Assembly (NCBI GenBank): GCA_021783235.1
Contig: JAJXUD010000001.1
Span: forward strand, 1-64,000
DNA: 64,000 nt
Direction of reading: 5' to 3'
Source of the DNA: Myxococcales bacterium
GTDB lineage: Bacteria; Myxococcota; Myxococcia; Myxococcales; JAKAPL01
Shown here: positions 4,147 through 59,245 of the stretch, piece after piece
Numbering within the stretch: position 1 is the first letter of the stretch
How the letters are laid out: each line of letters begins with the position of its first letter
Position numbers and translations under genes: made by a program
The notes under the pieces: model-generated
Databases searched by the model: none
What the model was told of the DNA's origin: nothing
What the model saw: only the letters and a program-made list of their open reading frames with translations

Positions 4147-5037
4147 TTAGCTGCCGGTCGCTGCAAGGTCTTGCCGTGACCGCAGGTCGTCGATCACCTT
4201 GAAGCTCCAAACGTGGGAGGGCACTCCCGCCCTTTCTTGGGTCGCGCGAAACCGCAAGTCGCAAACAGCCTGAGCAAGATCAGCCAGTTCGGGACGTCGC
4301 TCGCGGACCATGCTCTTGACCTGGACGCCCCAGTTGATGATGTACGCCGTGAGATCTGCCACCTGGACGAGGGTCGTGAGATCGGAGTGCACGAACAACG
4401 GCTCCGGGATGATCTTGCTCGCGCGCAGCTTGCCGGTGGCCGTCTCTCGGAAGTAGCGGTGCATCTGGTTGACGAGGTTCTGGGAGCGCGACTTCTCCGT
4501 CTCGTCGAAAACCACGATGCCGTGGCCGCGGTCGGTTTCGTCCAGGAAGTAGTAGAACCGTTCGAAGAGGTAGGCGAAGTCTTTCCTGAGGAACCCTCCC
4601 TCGGTTGGCCGCGGAGCATCCCGGTCGATGATGCTCGCGAAAGCCTTGCAGCGAAACGCGGCGGCTTGCTCGAAGATCCGGGCGCAGAATCCCAGCTTTG
4701 CCTGCGCCAATGCTGCCAACTCCCTGCGCGTGACCGCTGCTCCAGCTCCCGCGGCCCCTTTCGCGAGGCAGCTCTTCGTGAGTTCCAGCCTCTCGGCGGC
4801 CGGAATCGGCTCGCACTGCGCGGCATGGCGAAAGACCTTCTTCTTGAGAAGCTTCTTCCCCTTCAGCTCGAGCTCGAACTCTTGCGAGATCCTCCGTCCG
4901 AAGTGGTCGTGCTCGGCCTGGTGGACCGATTGGATCAGGTTCCAGAGGTCCCGGTCCTCGACTGCCAAGCCGGCGAGGACCTCGTAGGGCGACTCCCGGT
5001 CGCCACCGCTCTCGTCGATGAAGAGGAGGTGCGCCAC
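4147..5037 (-). CDS. DUF3800 domain protein
   Basis: The 296-residue protein starts with FIDESGG (Asp8-Glu9-Ser10), the hallmark of DUF3800. It has the expected internal DRD and FDETEKS acidic segments and the C-terminal VQVADLTAYI motif. The family has an RNase H-like appearance and is often found in mobile or defence-rich regions; its function is unproven. Base composition is visibly less GC-rich than the neighbours, and the gene is isolated between a repeat-filled spacer and a divergent housekeeping-like cluster. Horizontal acquisition is likely. The start codon is GTG at 5037. Confidence 0.87.
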   Translation of the reverse strand: MAHLLFIDESGGDRESPYEVLAGLAVEDRDLWNLIQSVHQAEHDHFGRRISQEFELELKGKKLLKKKVFRHAAQCEPIPAAERLELTKSCLAKGAAGAGAAVTRRELAALAQAKLGFCARIFEQAAAFRCKAFASIIDRDAPRPTEGGFLRKDFAYLFERFYYFLDETDRGHGIVVFDETEKSRSQNLVNQMHRYFRETATGKLRASKIIPEPLFVHSDLTTLVQVADLTAYIINWGVQVKSMVRERRPELADLAQAVCDLRFRATQERAGVPSHVWSFKVIDDLRSRQDLAATGS

Positions 5038-47145: not shown

Positions 47146-49388
47146 GGGACGTCGAAGCTGAAGACCGGTCCCGCCAGCTCTCCGCAGCCGGTGAGGGCGG
47201 TCACCTGCCAGCGGTGGCAGCCGGGGCCGGGCGGCGAGGAGGGCGTGCAGCTCGTCCCGGTGAGCCCGACGCAGATCGGCTGCCCGTCGAGCGTCACGTC
47301 GAAGGAGCTGCCCGGGGCCGAGGCGCTCCACGAGAGCGCGCTCGGCGCGCCGACGCTGCCGTCGGCAGGCGAGGGGGAGCCGACCGACGCGGGGGAGGGG
47401 GCGATGGCGAGCTCCCGCTCCGGGGAGAAGCTGGCGCCGCAGCCGTTCTGGGCCTCGACGTACCAGCGGTGCAGGCCGGGCGCGAGCGGGGGCAGCGCAC
47501 AGCTCGTCCCGCCGGTCGTGCAGGCGACCGCGCCGTCCACGACGAGCGCGTAGCTCGTCGCGCCCGTGGCCGCGGTCCAGCTCGGCGCGGGCGGCGTCCC
47601 GCAGCAGCTCGCCTGGTTCCAGGGGGCCGTCGGCGCGGGGGAGCCTGGGAGGTTGCCGGCGGCGCAGGGGACGGGCTCGACCACGACGACGTCCAGGTTC
47701 ACGTAGCCGCCGTTGCCCGCGGCCTCGCCGATCTCGAAGTCGGTGGGCCGCTGGGCGAGCTGAAGATCCTCGTGGACGTTCGACCAGGTCGACCAGGAGC
47801 CCGTCCCGGGGAAGGCGAGCGAGGAGTCGACGACCTTGCCGTCGACCGAGAGCGTCCGCGTCGCGGCCCCGGCGCCGGCCGCGTAGGCGAAGGTCAGCCG
47901 CCAGCGGCCGGCGGTCGGGACGTCCCAGTGGAGCAGCACCGACTGCCCCTGGCTGCCCCAGCCGGCGACGTAGCCGAAGCCTTCGTGGCCCGGCGCCGAG
48001 GCCTCGAGCCCGACCCCGTTCAGCTTGCCCTCCTCCGCCTGGAGGTGGTTCGCGGGGTAGCCGCGGCCCGGGTACTGTCCGCCGCGGGCCGCCGACAGGT
48101 CGAGCGCCATGAGCGCCGAGGTGACCGCGCGGAGGTCGACCGGCGTGGTCGGGGAGGGGGCGGGGCCCGCCCAGTCGGACGCGAAGACGTCGCCGGGCCC
48201 GCGCGCATCGTTCCAGACGGCCAGCGGGGAGTCGACGAGGACCGGAAGCGTCGCGAGGGTGGGGTCCACCGCGGAGAGCTCGTTCAGGTAGCGGTAGCCG
48301 ATGCCCTTGAACTGCGCGCAGTCGCCGCCGCAGGTCGATCCGTCGAAGAGGATGGGGCCGTCGCCGCTGCTCTCGGTCTCGCTCTGCTGCATGAACGCGG
48401 CGAAGGCCCTGGCGTCGTCCAGGTAGCGGGCCTCGCCCGTCGCCTCGTGCAGCTCGAGCGCGGCGCCCACCATCAGCCCCTGGTCGTAGCTGTACTTCCA
48501 CCAGAGCCGCTGCCCGGTCTTCGCGACGACGTGGTCGGCCACCTGACCCTGCGCGTCCACGTAGGTCGAGCGCCAGAAGTCGTAGACCCTCCGCGCGAAG
48601 GAGAGGTAGGCCGAGTTGCCGCTGCGGGCCGCGAGCCGCACGCCGGCGATCACCGGGCCGGCGTTCGAGGCGGTGGCCTTCTGCGTGTGCGCCTGGTCCC
48701 ACCAGATGCCGCCCGGGCTCGCGCCGCAGCAGGTCGTGTCCCAGCCGCCCTCGATGCTCGCGTAGATGCCCTCGGCGCTGCCGAGGAAGGTCGCGTCGCC
48801 GCCGAAGTCGTAGGCGCGCAGCAGGGCCAGCGTCATCCAGCTCTCGTCGTCGTAGTAGCTGCTCGAGAAGCCGCTCGAGTAGCTCGTCTTCTCGGCAGCG
48901 GCCGCGTCGTAGAAGGTGTCGAGCGTCAGCCCGAAGCCGCCCGTGCGGAAGGCCGCGTCGAGGAGCGCGTCGAAGCCCTGCGCGAAGGTCCAGTAGCCCG
49001 TCGCCGTCGTCGAGGCGCCGCCCTGGGAGGCCCAGCTCGCGGCGAGGTAGCCGAGCGGCTGGCTCCAGTAGTGGACGAGAAAGTCGCCGACCGCCTGGTC
49101 CGCGTCCGCGTGGGCGGCGGCGTCCTGGCTCTGCGGCGCGCAGCTCGAGCCGAGCGGAGCGCCGCCCGAGCCGCCGAGCGGCGCGCAGGCGCCACCGCTG
49201 GTCGAGCCGCCGCTCGACCCGCCCGAGGTCGATCCGCCGTTCGTCGTGCCGGAGCTCGTGGCGGCGGAGCCGCTGCCCCCGGCCGACGTGGAGCCGCCGC
49301 CGCTCGTGGCGGGGCTCGAGCCCTCTCCCGGCGAGCAGCCGCCGCCGAGGAGGAGCCCGAGGGCGAGAAGCGACGGGGCGAGTCTCAT
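47142..49388 (-). CDS. GH76-like glycoside hydrolase lipoprotein with carbohydrate-binding and Fn-type domains
   Basis: The 748-residue lipoprotein (LLLGGGC, Cys18) has a Gly/Ser/Thr-rich linker (about 22-70). A catalytic domain follows with the GH76 Asp pair in SSYYDDESWMTLALLRAY (Asp180-Asp181), characteristic of alpha-1,6-mannanases. A CBM6/35-like sandwich (LTFAYAAGAGAATRTLSVDGKVV) and two Fn3-like domains form the C-terminal part. It probably degrades fungal or bacterial mannan. A truncated copy of its 5' end lies at 52606-52800. Confidence 0.85.
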   Translation of the reverse strand: MRLAPSLLALGLLLGGGCSPGEGSSPATSGGGSTSAGGSGSAATSSGTTNGGSTSGGSSGGSTSGGACAPLGGSGGAPLGSSCAPQSQDAAAHADADQAVGDFLVHYWSQPLGYLAASWASQGGASTTATGYWTFAQGFDALLDAAFRTGGFGLTLDTFYDAAAAEKTSYSSGFSSSYYDDESWMTLALLRAYDFGGDATFLGSAEGIYASIEGGWDTTCCGASPGGIWWDQAHTQKATASNAGPVIAGVRLAARSGNSAYLSFARRVYDFWRSTYVDAQGQVADHVVAKTGQRLWWKYSYDQGLMVGAALELHEATGEARYLDDARAFAAFMQQSETESSGDGPILFDGSTCGGDCAQFKGIGYRYLNELSAVDPTLATLPVLVDSPLAVWNDARGPGDVFASDWAGPAPSPTTPVDLRAVTSALMALDLSAARGGQYPGRGYPANHLQAEEGKLNGVGLEASAPGHEGFGYVAGWGSQGQSVLLHWDVPTAGRWRLTFAYAAGAGAATRTLSVDGKVVDSSLAFPGTGSWSTWSNVHEDLQLAQRPTDFEIGEAAGNGGYVNLDVVVVEPVPCAAGNLPGSPAPTAPWNQASCCGTPPAPSWTAATGATSYALVVDGAVACTTGGTSCALPPLAPGLHRWYVEAQNGCGASFSPERELAIAPSPASVGSPSPADGSVGAPSALSWSASAPGSSFDVTLDGQPICVGLTGTSCTPSSPPGPGCHRWQVTALTGCGELAGPVFSFDVP

Positions 49389-49535
49389 GCGGCCAGTCTA
49401 CCGCTGCTCGGCCCGAGTTCGTCTCCGCCGGAGCGCGCAGCCGCTCGGGCGAAGGAGGGTCGATCGCCGGCCAGCGAGGCTCGACGAGCTGCGAGGGAGG
49501 CTCGATCGCGACCGATCCCTCGGGGATCACCCGCG
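49249..49535 (+). repeat. Source copy of a 280-bp segmental duplication
   Basis: This stretch covers the first about 45 codons of the GH76 gene, its upstream region and the start of array 2. It is closely matched by 52666-52935. Both copies contain the same CAT, CGGCCAGTCTACCGCTGCTC and GAGGCTCGACGAGCTGCGAG segments. Confidence 0.85.
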
Positions 49536-50010
49536 ATCCCTCGGGGACGATGGCCGATCCCTCGGGGATCACCCGCGATCCCTCGGGGACGATGGCCGAT
49601 CCCTCGGGGATCGCCCGGGATCCCTCGGGGACGATGGCCGATCCCCCGGGGATCGCCCGTGATCCCTCGGGGACGATGACCGATCCCTCGGGGATCGCCC
49701 GTGATCCCTCTGGGATGATGGCCGATCCCCCGGGGATCGCCCGCGATCCCTCGGGGACGATGGCCGATCCCTCGGGGATCGGCCGTGATCCCTCGGGGAC
49801 GATGGCCGATCCCTCGGGGATCGCCCGTGATCCCTCGGGGATGATGGCCGATCCCCCGGGGATTGCCCGTGATCCCTCGGGGATGATGGCCGATCCCTCG
49901 GGGATGATGGCCGATCCCTCGGGGATCGGCCGTGATCCCTCGGGGACGATGGCCGATCCCCCGGGGATCGCCCGTGATCCCCCGGGGATGATGGCCGATC
50001 CCCCGGGGAG
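49514..50010 (+). repeat. 21-bp tandem array, about 24 units (array 2)
   Basis: Units alternate between GATCCCTCGGGGATCGCCCG- and GATCCCTCGGGGACGATGGC-type forms, giving a 42-bp higher-order pattern. Each unit carries a CTCGGGG or CCCGGGG palindrome. It occupies the divergent intergenic region between the GH76 gene and the Cys-rich DUF1566 gene. All plus frames read as heptads such as ADPSGIA/RDPSGTM. No unique spacers are present. Confidence 0.95.
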
Positions 50011-52605: not shown

Positions 52606-52800
52606 TCACTTCGACATCTCGTCCCGCGAAGGGGCATCGAACCGCTCTCCGCTCGGAAGACCGGAGCTCGTGGCCTCGGCCCCGCTGCACCCGGCCGACG
52701 TGGAGCCGCCGCCGCTCCTGGCGGGGCTCGAGCCCGCTCCCGCCGAGCCGCCGTCGCCGAAGAGGAGCCCCACGGCGAGAAGCGACGGGGCGAGCCTCAT
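52606..52800 (-). pseudogene. Truncated 5' copy of the GH76-like gene
   Basis: The 64-codon reading (MRLAPSLLAVGLLFGDGGS...) matches the first about 45 residues of the protein at 47142-49388. The lipobox Cys is lost (GGGC became DGGS), and the rest of the gene is missing. The similarity continues through the upstream non-coding DNA up to 52935. It is a non-functional duplicate. Confidence 0.8.
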
Positions 52801-52935
52801 GCGGCCAGTCTACCGCTGCTCGGCCCGAGTTCGTCTCTGCCCGAGCGCGCCAGCCGCTCGGGCGAAGGAGGGTCGACGCCGGCCAGCGAGGCTCGACGAG
52901 CTGCGAGGGGGCTCGATCGCGACCGATTCCCCGGG
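52666..52935 (+). repeat. Partial copy of the 49249-49535 segment
   Basis: Holds the pseudogene 5' end and its upstream region. Similarity falls off in a residual two-unit 21-bp array at about 52925-52975 (GATTCCCCGGGGATCGCCC), the short counterpart of array 2. The remaining 52936-53116 shows nothing further beyond this. Confidence 0.8.
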
Positions 52936-53116
52936 GATCGCCCCGCACCTCCCCCGGGGAATGACGACCGATCGACGACCTTGCGAATATTCGGAGGCGC
53001 GGGCGGGGGGCTGAGACCGGCCCTTCCTCCACTCGCGCCCTCGTCGATGCCTCCATGGGTGAATTGAGTAGCGGTGGTTGCCTGCCTGGCCGCTTACTGG
53101 CATCATCCTCGGGTCC

Positions 53117-54379
53117 ATGGCCTCTGTTCGCGAGCTTCTCGAATGCTTGGGGCGCGATGGCCTGGTCAGGCTCATGCGAGAGCGCGGATTGCCCCCAACG
53201 CGGGAAAATGATGACCGCCGCAGCTGCCTGGCGCGCTCGTTTCGTGGGGACGTAAGCGGGTTCATCTCGGAGCTGACCCGAGAGGAACTCGTCTCGATTT
53301 TCCGGAGTTCGACCTTCGAGGTCCGGGGGGACGAGGCCTACCTTTCGAATCCCTCGAAGTACCGCCTGGACGAGCTGCGAGCGTTTGCGCTCAATGCCTT
53401 TGCCGGCTTAGACGTTCGGACCCCAGGCGAGTTCTGCTCCGTTCCCACTCCGAGCGAGGACGAACTTGAACTGCAGGTTGGCGAGCAAGAGGAATGCGTC
53501 AGCGACCTCGACATTGGCTCTCTCGGCCGGGTCAGCGAAGAATGGTCGAGACCTAGGCTCATTTCGCGGCTTCTGCGACACATGGGGAGGAAGGTTCCTT
53601 CTCGGTTGCGAACCGTGCGTTTCCACGAGCTTCTGGCTGACCTCGCGGCAAGAGGAATCGAGGCTTGCCTTTCGGACGATCCCGAGGATTCCCCGCTCGG
53701 TGACGGTACCGAGTCTCCAGGGATTTCCGCCAAGCTTCGTTTGCGTCTTCGTCTTCCCAAGGCATCGAACTCGAGAGCCCTGGCTGACCGGGGGATCGGC
53801 CCACGCGGACCGGCGATCGTCATCGATGGCGCGGAGCCCCCGCTCGTTCAGTCTTCCCATAGGCCGAGCGACTACGAGTTGGCTGTCCTGCGCCTGAAGT
53901 TCTTGACTGCCATTCCAAGCACCCGGCGCTCCGCCACGCCGCAGTGGCCGAGCGCATTTCTCGACGCTGCCACCCGCGGGCTTCAGCTCCGTCTCGGTGA
54001 GCCGGGGCTCCTTAGAGCGATCTCTGCGAGCGTCAGCATAGGCAATCACAGCCCTTACGATTCCATCCAAGAACTCGTTCGCGCCCTGAGCGAGCGGGAG
54101 TGGGACGAGCTCCTGGAGGATCTTCAAGCCCTCAATCCGTCCCAACCCGGTGTGGTGGCCGCCATCGCCCAGCAGGTCAGGGCGATTCTCACGAGTCAAC
54201 GCGCTTCGAGTTCGGAGGCGCCTCACATGCCGCCGGAAGACCTTCGCGTTTCACTGGCCGCGCCCGCGGAGCCACTCGTCGCGTCAGGGAAGCCCTCCGT
54301 CGCAGTCGAGCCACCTTCACCCTCCAAGACGAACGTTCGTGACTTGGGTTCTCTCTCCGGCATGTTCGGCGACGAGTAG
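53117..54379 (+). CDS. Unknown protein partnered with BrxL
   Basis: The 420-residue protein has three similar helical modules near the N-terminus, each with LxRxxLxxLxxxxG...(R)..EL. They lie at about 3-45, 55-105 and 140-185, and look SAP/HeH-like, hinting at DNA or protein binding. The central region is basic and the C-terminus acidic with SGMFGDE. No catalytic motif is recognised. Only 5 nt separate it from brxL, so it is the obvious partner. ATG 53117 is preferred over 53078. Its base composition is visibly less GC-rich than the surrounding genome. Confidence 0.7.
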   Translation: MASVRELLECLGRDGLVRLMRERGLPPTRENDDRRSCLARSFRGDVSGFISELTREELVSIFRSSTFEVRGDEAYLSNPSKYRLDELRAFALNAFAGLDVRTPGEFCSVPTPSEDELELQVGEQEECVSDLDIGSLGRVSEEWSRPRLISRLLRHMGRKVPSRLRTVRFHELLADLAARGIEACLSDDPEDSPLGDGTESPGISAKLRLRLRLPKASNSRALADRGIGPRGPAIVIDGAEPPLVQSSHRPSDYELAVLRLKFLTAIPSTRRSATPQWPSAFLDAATRGLQLRLGEPGLLRAISASVSIGNHSPYDSIQELVRALSEREWDELLEDLQALNPSQPGVVAAIAQQVRAILTSQRASSSEAPHMPPEDLRVSLAAPAEPLVASGKPSVAVEPPSPSKTNVRDLGSLSGMFGDE

Positions 54380-54384
54380 GGACG

Positions 54385-56424
54385 ATGAACCAAGAGCTTC
54401 GAAACAAGATCGAGCACGTATTCGACAAGTTGGTGGTGGATAAACGAGAAGCGCTCAAGGCGGGCTTCGAGCTGATGCCTCGCTTCGTGACGGAGTTCCT
54501 TCTCGCCCAAGCCAAGACTTCGAATGCGGGCATGGAGTTCGACGAGGTCCGCCGCCGGATCGCCCGCTACACGGTCGACGCCGATCGGAAGAATGCGTTC
54601 GTCTCCGAATTAATGATGAAGGGAGAAGCGTCGCTGATCGCTCTGCTGGATGTCGAGCCGGACCTCGCGCACGGGGAGCACATCGGACGGATCGCGCAAC
54701 TCGACGGCCAGCCCATTTGGGTTCCAAATGCGATCGTCGAGGAATACAAGGAACTACTCTATGGGGGCCTGTGGGGGAGCGCCAAACTCGTCATCGACCG
54801 GGCCGCCGAACCTCGCCGTGTCGCCGTCCAGGAGTTCAGGCCCTACCAGCTCACTAGACCAGACATGGATGCCTTTCGTCGCGCGCGCGATGAATTTTCG
54901 CTTGAAGAGTGGACGGATCTTCTCATTACGAGCGCGGGATATCGCCCGGAAGCATTCCCGACCTTCCGCGGGAAACTCTTGGTCCTCTCCCGTCTGACCC
55001 CGTTGACTCAGCCCAACCTAAACGTCGTGGAGTTGGGCCCACGAGGGACGGGGAAGAGCTACCTCCTTAGGAATCTCAGCTCCCGCGTTTACCTCCTTTC
55101 CGGAGCGAGGGCGAGCCCGGCGACGCTGCTTTACGACCTCAACAAGAAAAGGCTTGGAATCATCGGCACAAAGAAGGTTGTCGTCTTCGACGAGGTCAGC
55201 CACACCGCCTTCCCCGATCTGGCTTTGGTCGCCGCCCTCAAGGACTTCATGGAGTCCGGGAACATCGCTCGAGGGGGGCGGTCGTTCGTCGCCGACTCGA
55301 GTTTGGTGTTCACGGGTAATCTGGAACTCGATGGCGAGGGCCGGTTGCCGAGCAAGCAGTACACGCACTATTTCGAAGCCCTTCCCAGGGCTCTCTGCGA
55401 CGTGGCGATCGGCGATCGAATCCACGCATTCATCCCTGGCTGGGAGATCCCGAAAATCTCGGACGAGGTGCTCGCTGATGGCGTGGGATTGCTCTCCGAC
55501 TACTTCGGAGAGGTCCTCGGCGAGCTTCGGCGCGACCAGACGTTCCTTGACTTTCTCCAACAGAAGAAGCGCTTGGTCAACGCCACGCTTCGCGACCAGA
55601 CGGCCGTCATGCGAACGGCGGCTGGCCTGCTTCGCATGCTGTACCCCAACGGAAAGATTGGGGAAGAGGGCCTCAAGCATGTGCTTCCGGTTGCCACCGA
55701 GTTGCGCCAGCGAGTCCACCGTCAGCTCGAACGCATGGCCCCCGGTGAGTACAAGCCGAAGATCCTCTATTTCGAAGGCATCGACGTTCACTCTCCACCG
55801 GACTTGGGCACGCGTTTCGAGCTTGAGCCTCAGGATGTCCTCGCGAACGAGGTTCCGCAGGTTGGCAAGATCACCATCCTCCTCGTCGGCGGCAAAGGCG
55901 GCGGGGGCGTCGGGTTCGTGGAGTGCGCCCACAATCCGGGCACCGGTCGGCCACGTATTACCGGGCTTCACGGAGACGCACTGGCGCACTCCGTCGAGGC
56001 GGCTTACGAGGCGCTCCTTTCGCTTTCAGGGAACCTGGGGGTCTCGGTCGCCGACTTGCGAGCCAAGAAGTTCGCAGTTCACCTCGTGAACATTTCTGAG
56101 CCCAAGGATGGCCCGAGCGCCGGGCTGGCAATAGCCCTTGCGATGCTTTCCGCGGCAACCAAGCGACCGGTCCGCCCGAACGTCGCTGTGACGGGGGAAC
56201 TCTCGGTTCAGGGCAACGTCAATGCCGTCGGTGGCATTGCGGAGAAGCTCACGGCGGCGGCCCGTCACGGGCGCCGGTTGGTCCTGATTCCCGCCGAGAA
56301 TGCCTCGGAACTTGGGCGGTTGCCAGAACTCGGACTCCAGCTGGACATTCACCCAGTTCGGGAACTTCGAGAGGCGGTCGAACTCGTCCTGGCTGAATCC
56401 CCGCAGGCGGCGACTTCGGCGTAA
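54385..56424 (+). CDS. brxL: BrxL, Lon-like AAA+ protein of BREX defence
   Basis: The 679-residue protein has Walker A GPRGTGKS (218-225), Walker B VVVFDE (265-270) and sensor FTGNL. The C-terminal Lon-type domain has catalytic Ser578 (KDGPSAGL) and Lys621 (GIAEKL). Length and domain order fit BrxL, the factor that binds DNA and is needed for phage resistance in type I BREX. No pglX, pglZ, brxC or brxA/B is in the window, so this is an orphan or a distinct two-gene system. The base composition resembles its upstream partner. Confidence 0.92.
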   Translation: MNQELRNKIEHVFDKLVVDKREALKAGFELMPRFVTEFLLAQAKTSNAGMEFDEVRRRIARYTVDADRKNAFVSELMMKGEASLIALLDVEPDLAHGEHIGRIAQLDGQPIWVPNAIVEEYKELLYGGLWGSAKLVIDRAAEPRRVAVQEFRPYQLTRPDMDAFRRARDEFSLEEWTDLLITSAGYRPEAFPTFRGKLLVLSRLTPLTQPNLNVVELGPRGTGKSYLLRNLSSRVYLLSGARASPATLLYDLNKKRLGIIGTKKVVVFDEVSHTAFPDLALVAALKDFMESGNIARGGRSFVADSSLVFTGNLELDGEGRLPSKQYTHYFEALPRALCDVAIGDRIHAFIPGWEIPKISDEVLADGVGLLSDYFGEVLGELRRDQTFLDFLQQKKRLVNATLRDQTAVMRTAAGLLRMLYPNGKIGEEGLKHVLPVATELRQRVHRQLERMAPGEYKPKILYFEGIDVHSPPDLGTRFELEPQDVLANEVPQVGKITILLVGGKGGGGVGFVECAHNPGTGRPRITGLHGDALAHSVEAAYEALLSLSGNLGVSVADLRAKKFAVHLVNISEPKDGPSAGLAIALAMLSAATKRPVRPNVAVTGELSVQGNVNAVGGIAEKLTAAARHGRRLVLIPAENASELGRLPELGLQLDIHPVRELREAVELVLAESPQAATSA

Positions 56425-56516: not shown

Positions 56517-56560
56517 GAGGGCGGCGGCATCGTCAAGGCGCTGCGGCTCCCGGGCGGCGG
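56517..56560 (+). repeat. Exact 44-bp duplicate of an internal aspS segment
   Basis: The 44 bases GAGGGCGGCGGCATCGTCAA... are identical to aspS 58427-58470, and the match stops sharply at both ends. It lies in the non-coding gap after brxL, 1.9 kb upstream of the functional copy and in the same direction. The rest of 56425-56672 contains no recognised gene. Confidence 0.9.
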
Positions 56561-57608: not shown

Positions 57609-59245
57609 CGCAGGTGGTCTTCGAGCCGGACGTCTCGCCCGAGGCCCACGCGCTCGCGGGCGAGCTGCGCCACGAGTACGTCGTCGGCATCCGCGGCAAG
57701 GTCCACGCGCGCGGCGCGCAGGTGAACCCGAAGATGAAGACGGGCGAGGTCGAGGTGAAGGCCACGGAGCTCGAGATCTTCAACCGGGCCGAGACGCCGC
57801 CCTTCCCGATGGACGACGAGATCGACACGGCCGAGGAGAAGCGGCTCGCCCATCGCTACCTCGACCTGCGGCGCGCCCCGCTCCAGCGGGTCCTGATGAC
57901 GCGCCACCGGATGAACCAGGCGACGCGCGGCTACCTGAGCTCGCGCGGCTTCCTCGAGCTCGAGACGCCGTTCATGATCCGCAGCACGCCGGGCGGGGCG
58001 CGCAACTTCCTCGTCCCTTCGCGGCTGAACCCGGGCAAGTTCTACGGCCTCGCGGAGAGCCCGCAGCTCTTCAAGCAGCTCTACATGGTGTCGGGCTTCG
58101 ACCGCTACTTCCAGATCGTCAAGTGCTTCCGCGACGAGGATCTGCGCGGCGACCGGCAGCCGGAGTTCACGCAGATCGACCTCGAGATGAGCTTCGTCGC
58201 CGAGCCCGACGTCTTCGAGATCATCGAGGGGCTGATGGCGGAGCTCTTCCGCGCGGCCAAGGGCAAGGAGCTCACGACCCCGTTCCCGCGGATGCCTTAC
58301 GAGGAGGCGATGGACCGCTACGGCGTCGACAAGCCCGACACCCGCTTCGGCCTCGAGCTCTGCGAGGTGACCGACGTCGTCCGCGCCGAGAACGGCGGCG
58401 GCGTGCCGCTCTTCGCGCAGGCGCTGGAGGGCGGCGGCATCGTCAAGGCGCTGCGGCTCCCGGGCGGCGGCGGCCTCTCGCGCACCGAGCTCGACGGCCT
58501 CGAGGAGGTGGCGAAGAGCTTCGGCGCCCGCGGCCTCGCGCGCGCCAAGGTGGGGCCGGGCGGCGAGTGGACCCAGTCGCCGCTCGCGAAGAGCGCGACG
58601 CCCGGGCTGCGCCAGGGCATCCACGAGAAGACGCAGGCGAAGGAAGGGGACGTTCTCCTCTTCCAGTTCGGCAAGGCCAAGGTGGTCAACGGCGTGCTCG
58701 GGCAGCTTCGCGGCTCGCTCGGGAAGCGGCTGAAGCTCATCCCCGAGGGGCGCGACGACCTGCTCTGGGTGGTCGACTTCCCGCTCTTCGAGTACTCGGA
58801 CGAGCAGAAGGCCCACGTGGCGGCGCACCACCCGTTCACCTCGCCGCGGCCCGAGGACGTCGAGTTCATCCTCTCGGACCCGGGCCGCTGCAGGGCGCGG
58901 GCGTACGACCTCGTGCTCAACGGCAACGAGGTGGGCGGCGGCAGCATTCGAATCCACGACTCGAGCGTGCAGGCGAAGGTGTTCAAGGCGCTCGGAATCT
59001 CGGACGAGGAGGCGAACAGCAAGTTCGGCTTCTTGCTCGAGGCGCTCCGTTACGGCGCGCCGCCGCACGGCGGCCTCGCGCTCGGTATGGACCGGCTCAC
59101 CATGCTGCTCGCGGGCGGCGAGTCGCTGCGCGACGTCATCCCGTTCCCGAAGACGCAGAAGGGGACGGATCTCATGACGGGCGCGCCGGGCGACGTCACC
59201 GAGGCGCAGCTGCGCGAGCTGCACGTGCGGAGCGTGCTGCCTTGA
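57449..59245 (+). CDS. aspS: Aspartyl-tRNA synthetase
   Basis: The 598-residue class II synthetase has the N-terminal anticodon-binding OB fold, motif 2 in FRDEDLRGDRQPEFTQID and motif 3 in GGLALGMDRL. A GAD insertion follows the catalytic core, as in bacterial AspRS. It charges tRNA-Asp; whether it also charges tRNA-Asn cannot be told. The stop overlaps the next TTG start by 3 nt. Confidence 0.95.
   Translation: MPPRFIFDIKRTHSCGALTKANVGESVVLFGWVATRRDHGGCVFIDLRDREGLTQVVFEPDVSPEAHALAGELRHEYVVGIRGKVHARGAQVNPKMKTGEVEVKATELEIFNRAETPPFPMDDEIDTAEEKRLAHRYLDLRRAPLQRVLMTRHRMNQATRGYLSSRGFLELETPFMIRSTPGGARNFLVPSRLNPGKFYGLAESPQLFKQLYMVSGFDRYFQIVKCFRDEDLRGDRQPEFTQIDLEMSFVAEPDVFEIIEGLMAELFRAAKGKELTTPFPRMPYEEAMDRYGVDKPDTRFGLELCEVTDVVRAENGGGVPLFAQALEGGGIVKALRLPGGGGLSRTELDGLEEVAKSFGARGLARAKVGPGGEWTQSPLAKSATPGLRQGIHEKTQAKEGDVLLFQFGKAKVVNGVLGQLRGSLGKRLKLIPEGRDDLLWVVDFPLFEYSDEQKAHVAAHHPFTSPRPEDVEFILSDPGRCRARAYDLVLNGNEVGGGSIRIHDSSVQAKVFKALGISDEEANSKFGFLLEALRYGAPPHGGLALGMDRLTMLLAGGESLRDVIPFPKTQKGTDLMTGAPGDVTEAQLRELHVRSVLP

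Follow-up and report, generated by a model that had tools for sequence, protein, structure and literature searches.

According to a 2026 survey, BrxL is specific to BREX Types 1 and 4, its AAA+ module belongs to the MCM family, and its Lon domain lacks the catalytic dyad (PMC12839542). The Acinetobacter protein is a DNA-binding ring with DNA-stimulated ATPase activity and no protease motif (PMC10164562). E. coli and Acinetobacter needed BrxL for phage inhibition; Salmonella did not (PMC12839542). Here we describe a brxL gene that stands outside BREX with a single partner, and compare it with the BrxLs of Type-1 and Type-4 systems and with further BrxLs found outside BREX in bacteria and archaea.

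The gene lies in the 64-kb stretch of DNA analysed here (the window), as the second member of a pair on the forward strand. The upstream gene, P0001 (53117..54379), encodes a 420-aa protein without a known domain and is followed after 5 nt by brxL (P0002, 54385..56424), which encodes 679 aa. Both reading frames are intact, and a preliminary description of this DNA, which had reported a 420-residue protein 5 nt before brxL, had placed them correctly. We set the start of P0001 at 53117, where the first methionine of its homologues aligns, rather than at a longer TTG start at 53078.

P0002 is a BrxL from end to end. The PADLOC BrxL model matched residues 2-664 with 411 bits, and PF20442 (63.8 bits, cut-off 28.2), PF13337 (324 bits, cut-off 25) and TIGR02688 (380 bits, cut-off 329) all scored above their curated thresholds; the nearest solved structures were 8emc and 8emh. 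Like the Acinetobacter Type-1 BREX BrxL of those entries (PMC10164562), it combines an N-terminal domain (BrxL_N, PF20442, residues 12-135, 54418..54789), an AAA+ ATPase domain (PF13337, residues 147-458, 54823..55758) with intact Walker A (GPRGTGKS) and Walker B (VVFDEV) motifs, and a Lon-like C-terminal domain (Lon_C, PF05362, 126 bits, residues 487-669, 55843..56391), all encoded on the forward strand. In contrast to Type-1 BrxL, it stands without BREX partners, keeps the Lon serine motif and falls on a separate branch at 100/100 support. The AAA+ plus Lon architecture attributed to it earlier was borne out at the level of domains, whereas a working protease is unlikely. Alignment places Ser578 (KDGPSAG; codon 56116..56118, forward strand) at the Lon catalytic serine, and Ala619 (codon 56239..56241, forward strand) at the catalytic lysine, within GGIAEK where true Lon has GGLKEK. 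The Ser-Lys dyad is incomplete, and with alanine at the lysine position, proteolysis by the usual dyad appears unlikely. Elsewhere the lysine position is occupied by alanine in the BrxLs of loci L003 and L038 and by proline in those of L092 and L093, and the serine motif itself is missing from the Type-1 BREX BrxLs compared and from the L136 protein.

Sequence comparison set the window BrxL apart from those of Type-1 BREX. Its nearest relatives, from Bacillota, shared up to 42% identity with it, whereas identity to Type-1 BrxLs was about 27-33%, reaching up to 36% in the N-terminal plus AAA+ core. A 12-member non-Type-1 group that includes the window protein separated from 16 Type-1 BrxLs at 100/100 support, and in each of three differently sampled trees a split at 100/100 put the Type-1 proteins together and left the window BrxL on the opposite side. 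The non-Type-1 side also held a Type-4-like BrxL (L109), a Myxococcota protein (L038), the BrxLs of four Bacillota operons and those of Nitrososphaeria; the window protein and the four complete Bacillota operon BrxLs grouped at 98/94, in a half of the tree where several members form long branches and the exact order is less certain. The Type-4 candidate, recognised by DUF4007 and a weak PglZ match, shares this half of the tree with the window BrxL but is shorter (485 aa), lacks a C-terminal domain and sits with BREX genes, whereas the window protein has a Lon-like tail and no BREX genes. As classified by these trees, the window protein is not a Type-1 BREX BrxL and belongs to a separate, well-supported branch, which we present here as new; a search of the literature returned no phage experiments on any of its members. 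Among Myxococcota, brxL occurred in 11 of 195 genomes and was absent from both same-family genomes searched, and viral contigs yielded no BrxL relatives.

The genome around the pair likewise speaks against a BREX system. The absence of pglX, pglZ, brxC and brxA/B from the window, noted previously, held, and for PglZ, PglX and BrxC we extended it to the whole genome. Three components that mark Type 1 BREX were wanting: PglZ had no match anywhere in the 97% complete genome; PglX gave only partial matches of 44 and 19 bits, against a cut-off of 500; and no BrxC lay in the locus, the sole BrxC/D-family ATPase genome-wide (found with PF10923, a BrxC/D model that a divergent BrxC may escape) being SngB, encoded by a Shango locus on a different contig. 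Type 4, which is marked by PAPS reductase or DUF4007, by BrxC and PglZ, and by a BrxL that ends without a C-terminal domain, was no better match, given the genome-wide absence of PglZ and the Lon-like C-terminal domain of the window BrxL. No BrxA or BrxB was noticed beside the pair, in an inspection of the locus only. Because PglZ is absent, PglX matches are below cut-off and the only BrxC/D ATPase belongs to Shango, the pair is no piece of a BREX locus lying just beyond the window's edge, and a full BREX system elsewhere in the genome was rejected on the PglZ, PglX and BrxC searches. By contrast, at the five other Myxococcota loci of Type-1-like BrxLs that were examined, PglX and PglZ matches adjoin brxL. 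It is very probable that a P0001-BrxL operon independent of BREX exists. Separately, the host genome carries a complete Shango-type locus, SngA-SngB-SngC (L047:7409-13325, contig C61).

The composition of the pair is foreign to its surroundings, in keeping with the lower GC content suspected at the outset. GC was 0.630 in P0001 and 0.614 in brxL versus 0.72 ± 0.04 in the 23 other window genes, and GC at third codon positions was 0.71 and 0.75 versus 0.91 ± 0.04 in the same genes (z = -5.0 and -3.9). In 4-mer usage the pair formed the most deviant 3.3-kb stretch of the 64-kb window, exceeded by none of 122 sliding stretches of that length. This shared atypical composition makes it probable that the two genes were acquired as one unit, horizontally and from elsewhere. 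A second metagenome-assembled genome (MAG) of the same species carries the same DNA at 99.98% identity, with P0001 complete and brxL represented by its start, and an assembly accident is therefore unlikely.

No further defence genes were recognised adjoining the pair, no RNA families were found close to the locus, and promoter and terminator scans returned nothing specific to it. In three relatives, none of the other window genes tested for synteny, leaving aside the glp genes downstream, was found close to aspS. A 313-bp segment shortly before the pair (52661-52973) is a 90% copy of 49249-49559, in the start region of a gene for a GH76/CBM lipoprotein, and apparently represents a truncated duplicate. 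Downstream of brxL, 44 bp (56517-56560) exactly copy an aspS-internal segment (58427-58470), as either a recombination scar or an assembly artefact.

BrxLs outside BREX were also present in other organisms. Four Bacillota loci share an operon in which an uncharacterised ~300-aa protein and two BrxD-like ATPases precede brxL (L003:4515-10052, L092:585-6129, L093:9267-14818 and L136:1155-6213), with differing flanks, and a fifth has the same order on a contig that ends inside brxL (L134:40-3494). PglX and PglZ were not found beside any of the five operons, and the L003 genome as a whole had no PglZ match. These BrxLs are the closest to that of the window, and three of the four complete ones likewise keep the serine and lose the lysine; their operons differ in having three upstream genes where the window has P0001. 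The ~300-aa protein occurred in 17 of 399 genomes sampled, and in other Bacillota the whole upstream trio, or failing that the two ATPases, stood without brxL in the stretches examined, so BrxL appears to be a partner that this core can swap for others. No description of these operons was found in the literature searched.

Nitrososphaeria encode short BrxLs without a Lon-like tail, in several settings. A small CxC..CxH protein directly precedes brxL at two loci (L112:4710-6744 and L004:1674-4059); it resembles SWIM proteins by eye only and matched no model. At L113 the short BrxL follows an ATPase-like protein, and in two genomes a lone short BrxL lies beside the same prenyl-synthase-like gene (L102/L114, at L114:6982-8445, and L105:1009-2469), a repeated chromosomal position suggesting that some BrxLs serve a non-defence role. 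In Myxococcota, L038:8186-13997 combines PglZ and BrxL with a third gene of 305 aa, with no PglX match by tblastn, and constitutes a reduced BREX-like arrangement. Close relatives of the window BrxL also occur without PglX and PglZ; a small module of BrxL with a partner is therefore no freak, and BrxL may be usable with different partners.

The partner protein proved harder to place. P0001 had been described as carrying three SAP-like helical modules and as a possible source of DNA recognition, and neither idea found support: the protein had no sequence match in Pfam, NCBIfam, PADLOC, PHROG or PDB, and no SAP or other DNA-binding domain model matched P0001, its homologues or its sub-domains at E values up to 10. 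The SAP assignment was accordingly dropped, as was a winged-helix/LOTUS-like reading of residues 131-213, drawn from the motif and unsupported by any model. Folding by AlphaFold without an alignment gave a pLDDT of 39, too low to judge the fold, and there are only hints that the protein may be all-helical.

Profile searches found P0001-like proteins in 6 of 195 Myxococcota genomes, one being the genome of the window and the other five belonging to a single Myxococcus-like genus. The latter (L015-L019) encode stand-alone proteins of ~233-300 aa in varying neighbourhoods with no brxL nearby, and only in the window's own genome does the gene adjoin brxL. Continued linkage of the pair in other genomes, which the preliminary description had proposed to check, was not borne out; nor is the partner gene confined to full BREX loci, the pattern that the preliminary description had named as counting against its reading. 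Alignment to the Myxococcus-like ~235-aa proteins covers P0001 residues 1-213 at 31-33% identity. The likeness includes the most conserved block (residues 131-213, 53507..53755, forward strand; WSRPR...LL..G..VP.RLR..RF.E....L...GI...SPG....RLRLR), and invariant residues are concentrated between 143 and 210 (W143, R145-R147, G157, V160, P161, R163-R165, R168, F169, S200-G202 and R208-R210). Unlike P0001, these proteins lack the C-terminal 207 residues (214-420), a segment with no detected homologue that ends in a Pro/Ser/Ala-rich tail, and they are encoded away from brxL. No P0001 relatives were found in phages, plasmids or viral contigs. Profile comparison showed no relation to the ~300-aa protein of the Bacillota operons, and weak matches in L012/L020, L013/L022 and L014/L021 (histidine kinase-like, ClpC-like and other proteins) proved unrelated. 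A single species, represented by the two MAGs that are 99.98% identical, is the only one in which the P0001-BrxL pair is known.

We favour, at a probability of roughly 0.5, the reading that the two genes form an operon gained by horizontal transfer, whose non-canonical BrxL has P0001 as its working partner in place of the BREX core. In this scheme P0001 would bind or sense a feature of invading DNA, or its replication state, and would interact with BrxL and load or license it on the target. BrxL might then assemble on invading DNA as an ATP-dependent ring, by analogy with the ring that the Acinetobacter protein forms on DNA (PMC10164562), and, with no methylation involved, block use of that DNA by unwinding or translocation. 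The Lon-like tail would be structural or regulatory rather than a protease. An anti-phage or anti-plasmid function seems somewhat the better guess for the pair, while the role of DNA recogniser or loader is one we assign to P0001 only tentatively. The earlier idea of a minimal module with a partner survives in that the pair stands in a genome without PglZ, PglX or BrxC and that close relatives of its BrxL also occur without PglX and PglZ; the SAP-type DNA-recognition component of that idea does not.

Several other explanations account for part of these observations. The pair could be a functionless remnant, brxL and an unrelated neighbour left over from a BREX-like locus or from a larger operon of the Bacillota type. 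The window BrxL does group with proteins of four-gene operons whose three upstream genes are missing here, and repeats and duplicated fragments surround the locus (52661-52973/49249-49559 at 90%, and the aspS piece at 56517-56560). Decay is nevertheless unlikely. Neither frame is broken, every AAA+ motif checked is preserved, and the genes are spaced, 5 nt apart, as in an operon; moreover, no fragment of a BREX gene turned up, and P0001 and brxL have their atypical composition in common. The draft state of the genome (4.58 Mb in 133 contigs, 97% complete) raises the alternative that a full BREX system was split over contigs, which we find scarcely credible given that the pair is flanked by non-BREX DNA ~53 kb into a contig of 248 kb, that no qualifying PglZ or PglX was found genome-wide and that the BrxL is off the Type-1 branch.

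Two further readings keep the operon functional and change what it does. BrxL could be an MCM-like AAA+ protein with a cellular role in DNA maintenance or replication control, and P0001 its adaptor. The MCM-family assignment of the AAA+ domain (PMC12839542) and the lone Nitrososphaeria BrxLs beside a recurring prenyl-synthase-like gene are consistent with such a role, as is the occurrence of the P0001 family alone in ordinary chromosomal settings of the Myxococcus-like genus; foreign composition and the scarcity of BrxL (11 of 195 Myxococcota genomes, and neither of the same-family genomes searched) fit an accessory gene better and render a cellular role improbable. Alternatively, the pair could be a proteolytic two-component system, P0001 serving as adaptor or substrate and the Lon-like domain cutting P0001 or a phage protein. 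That domain closely resembles true Lon, scoring 126 bits against Lon_C, and has retained the DGPSAG serine motif missing from Type-1 BrxLs, but the lysine position is alanine (window, L003 and L038) or proline (L092/L093), the L136 protein has lost the serine motif too, and the known BrxL is a DNA-binding ring devoid of a protease motif (PMC10164562), all of which leaves proteolysis highly improbable.

A minimal BrxL module is a plausible reading of the pair, with the pairing resting on one species. More speculatively, and with considerable doubt on our part, BrxL could be a general-purpose DNA-ring effector deployed in several modular non-BREX contexts (with P0001, with an uncharacterised protein and tandem BrxD-like ATPases, next to a zinc-finger-like CxC..CxH protein, paired with PglZ only, or by itself), of which the window would hold the smallest bacterial version among those compared: a two-gene, methylation-free defence whose one partner protein stands in for the entire BREX recognition machinery. 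The occurrence of BrxL outside BREX across several bacterial and archaeal contexts is what we consider most worth following. Such operons are compact enough to probe the unsolved role of BrxL in the absence of five other proteins, and the two-gene version, clonable in ~3.3 kb, asks directly what BrxL needs to act on DNA.

Two minor features of the window lie apart from the pair. A 42-bp tandem repeat of ~12 copies, 90-94% alike, occupies 49512-50009, and a DUF3800 gene at 4147-5037, whose GC content of 0.63 is below that of its neighbours, is likely another acquired gene.
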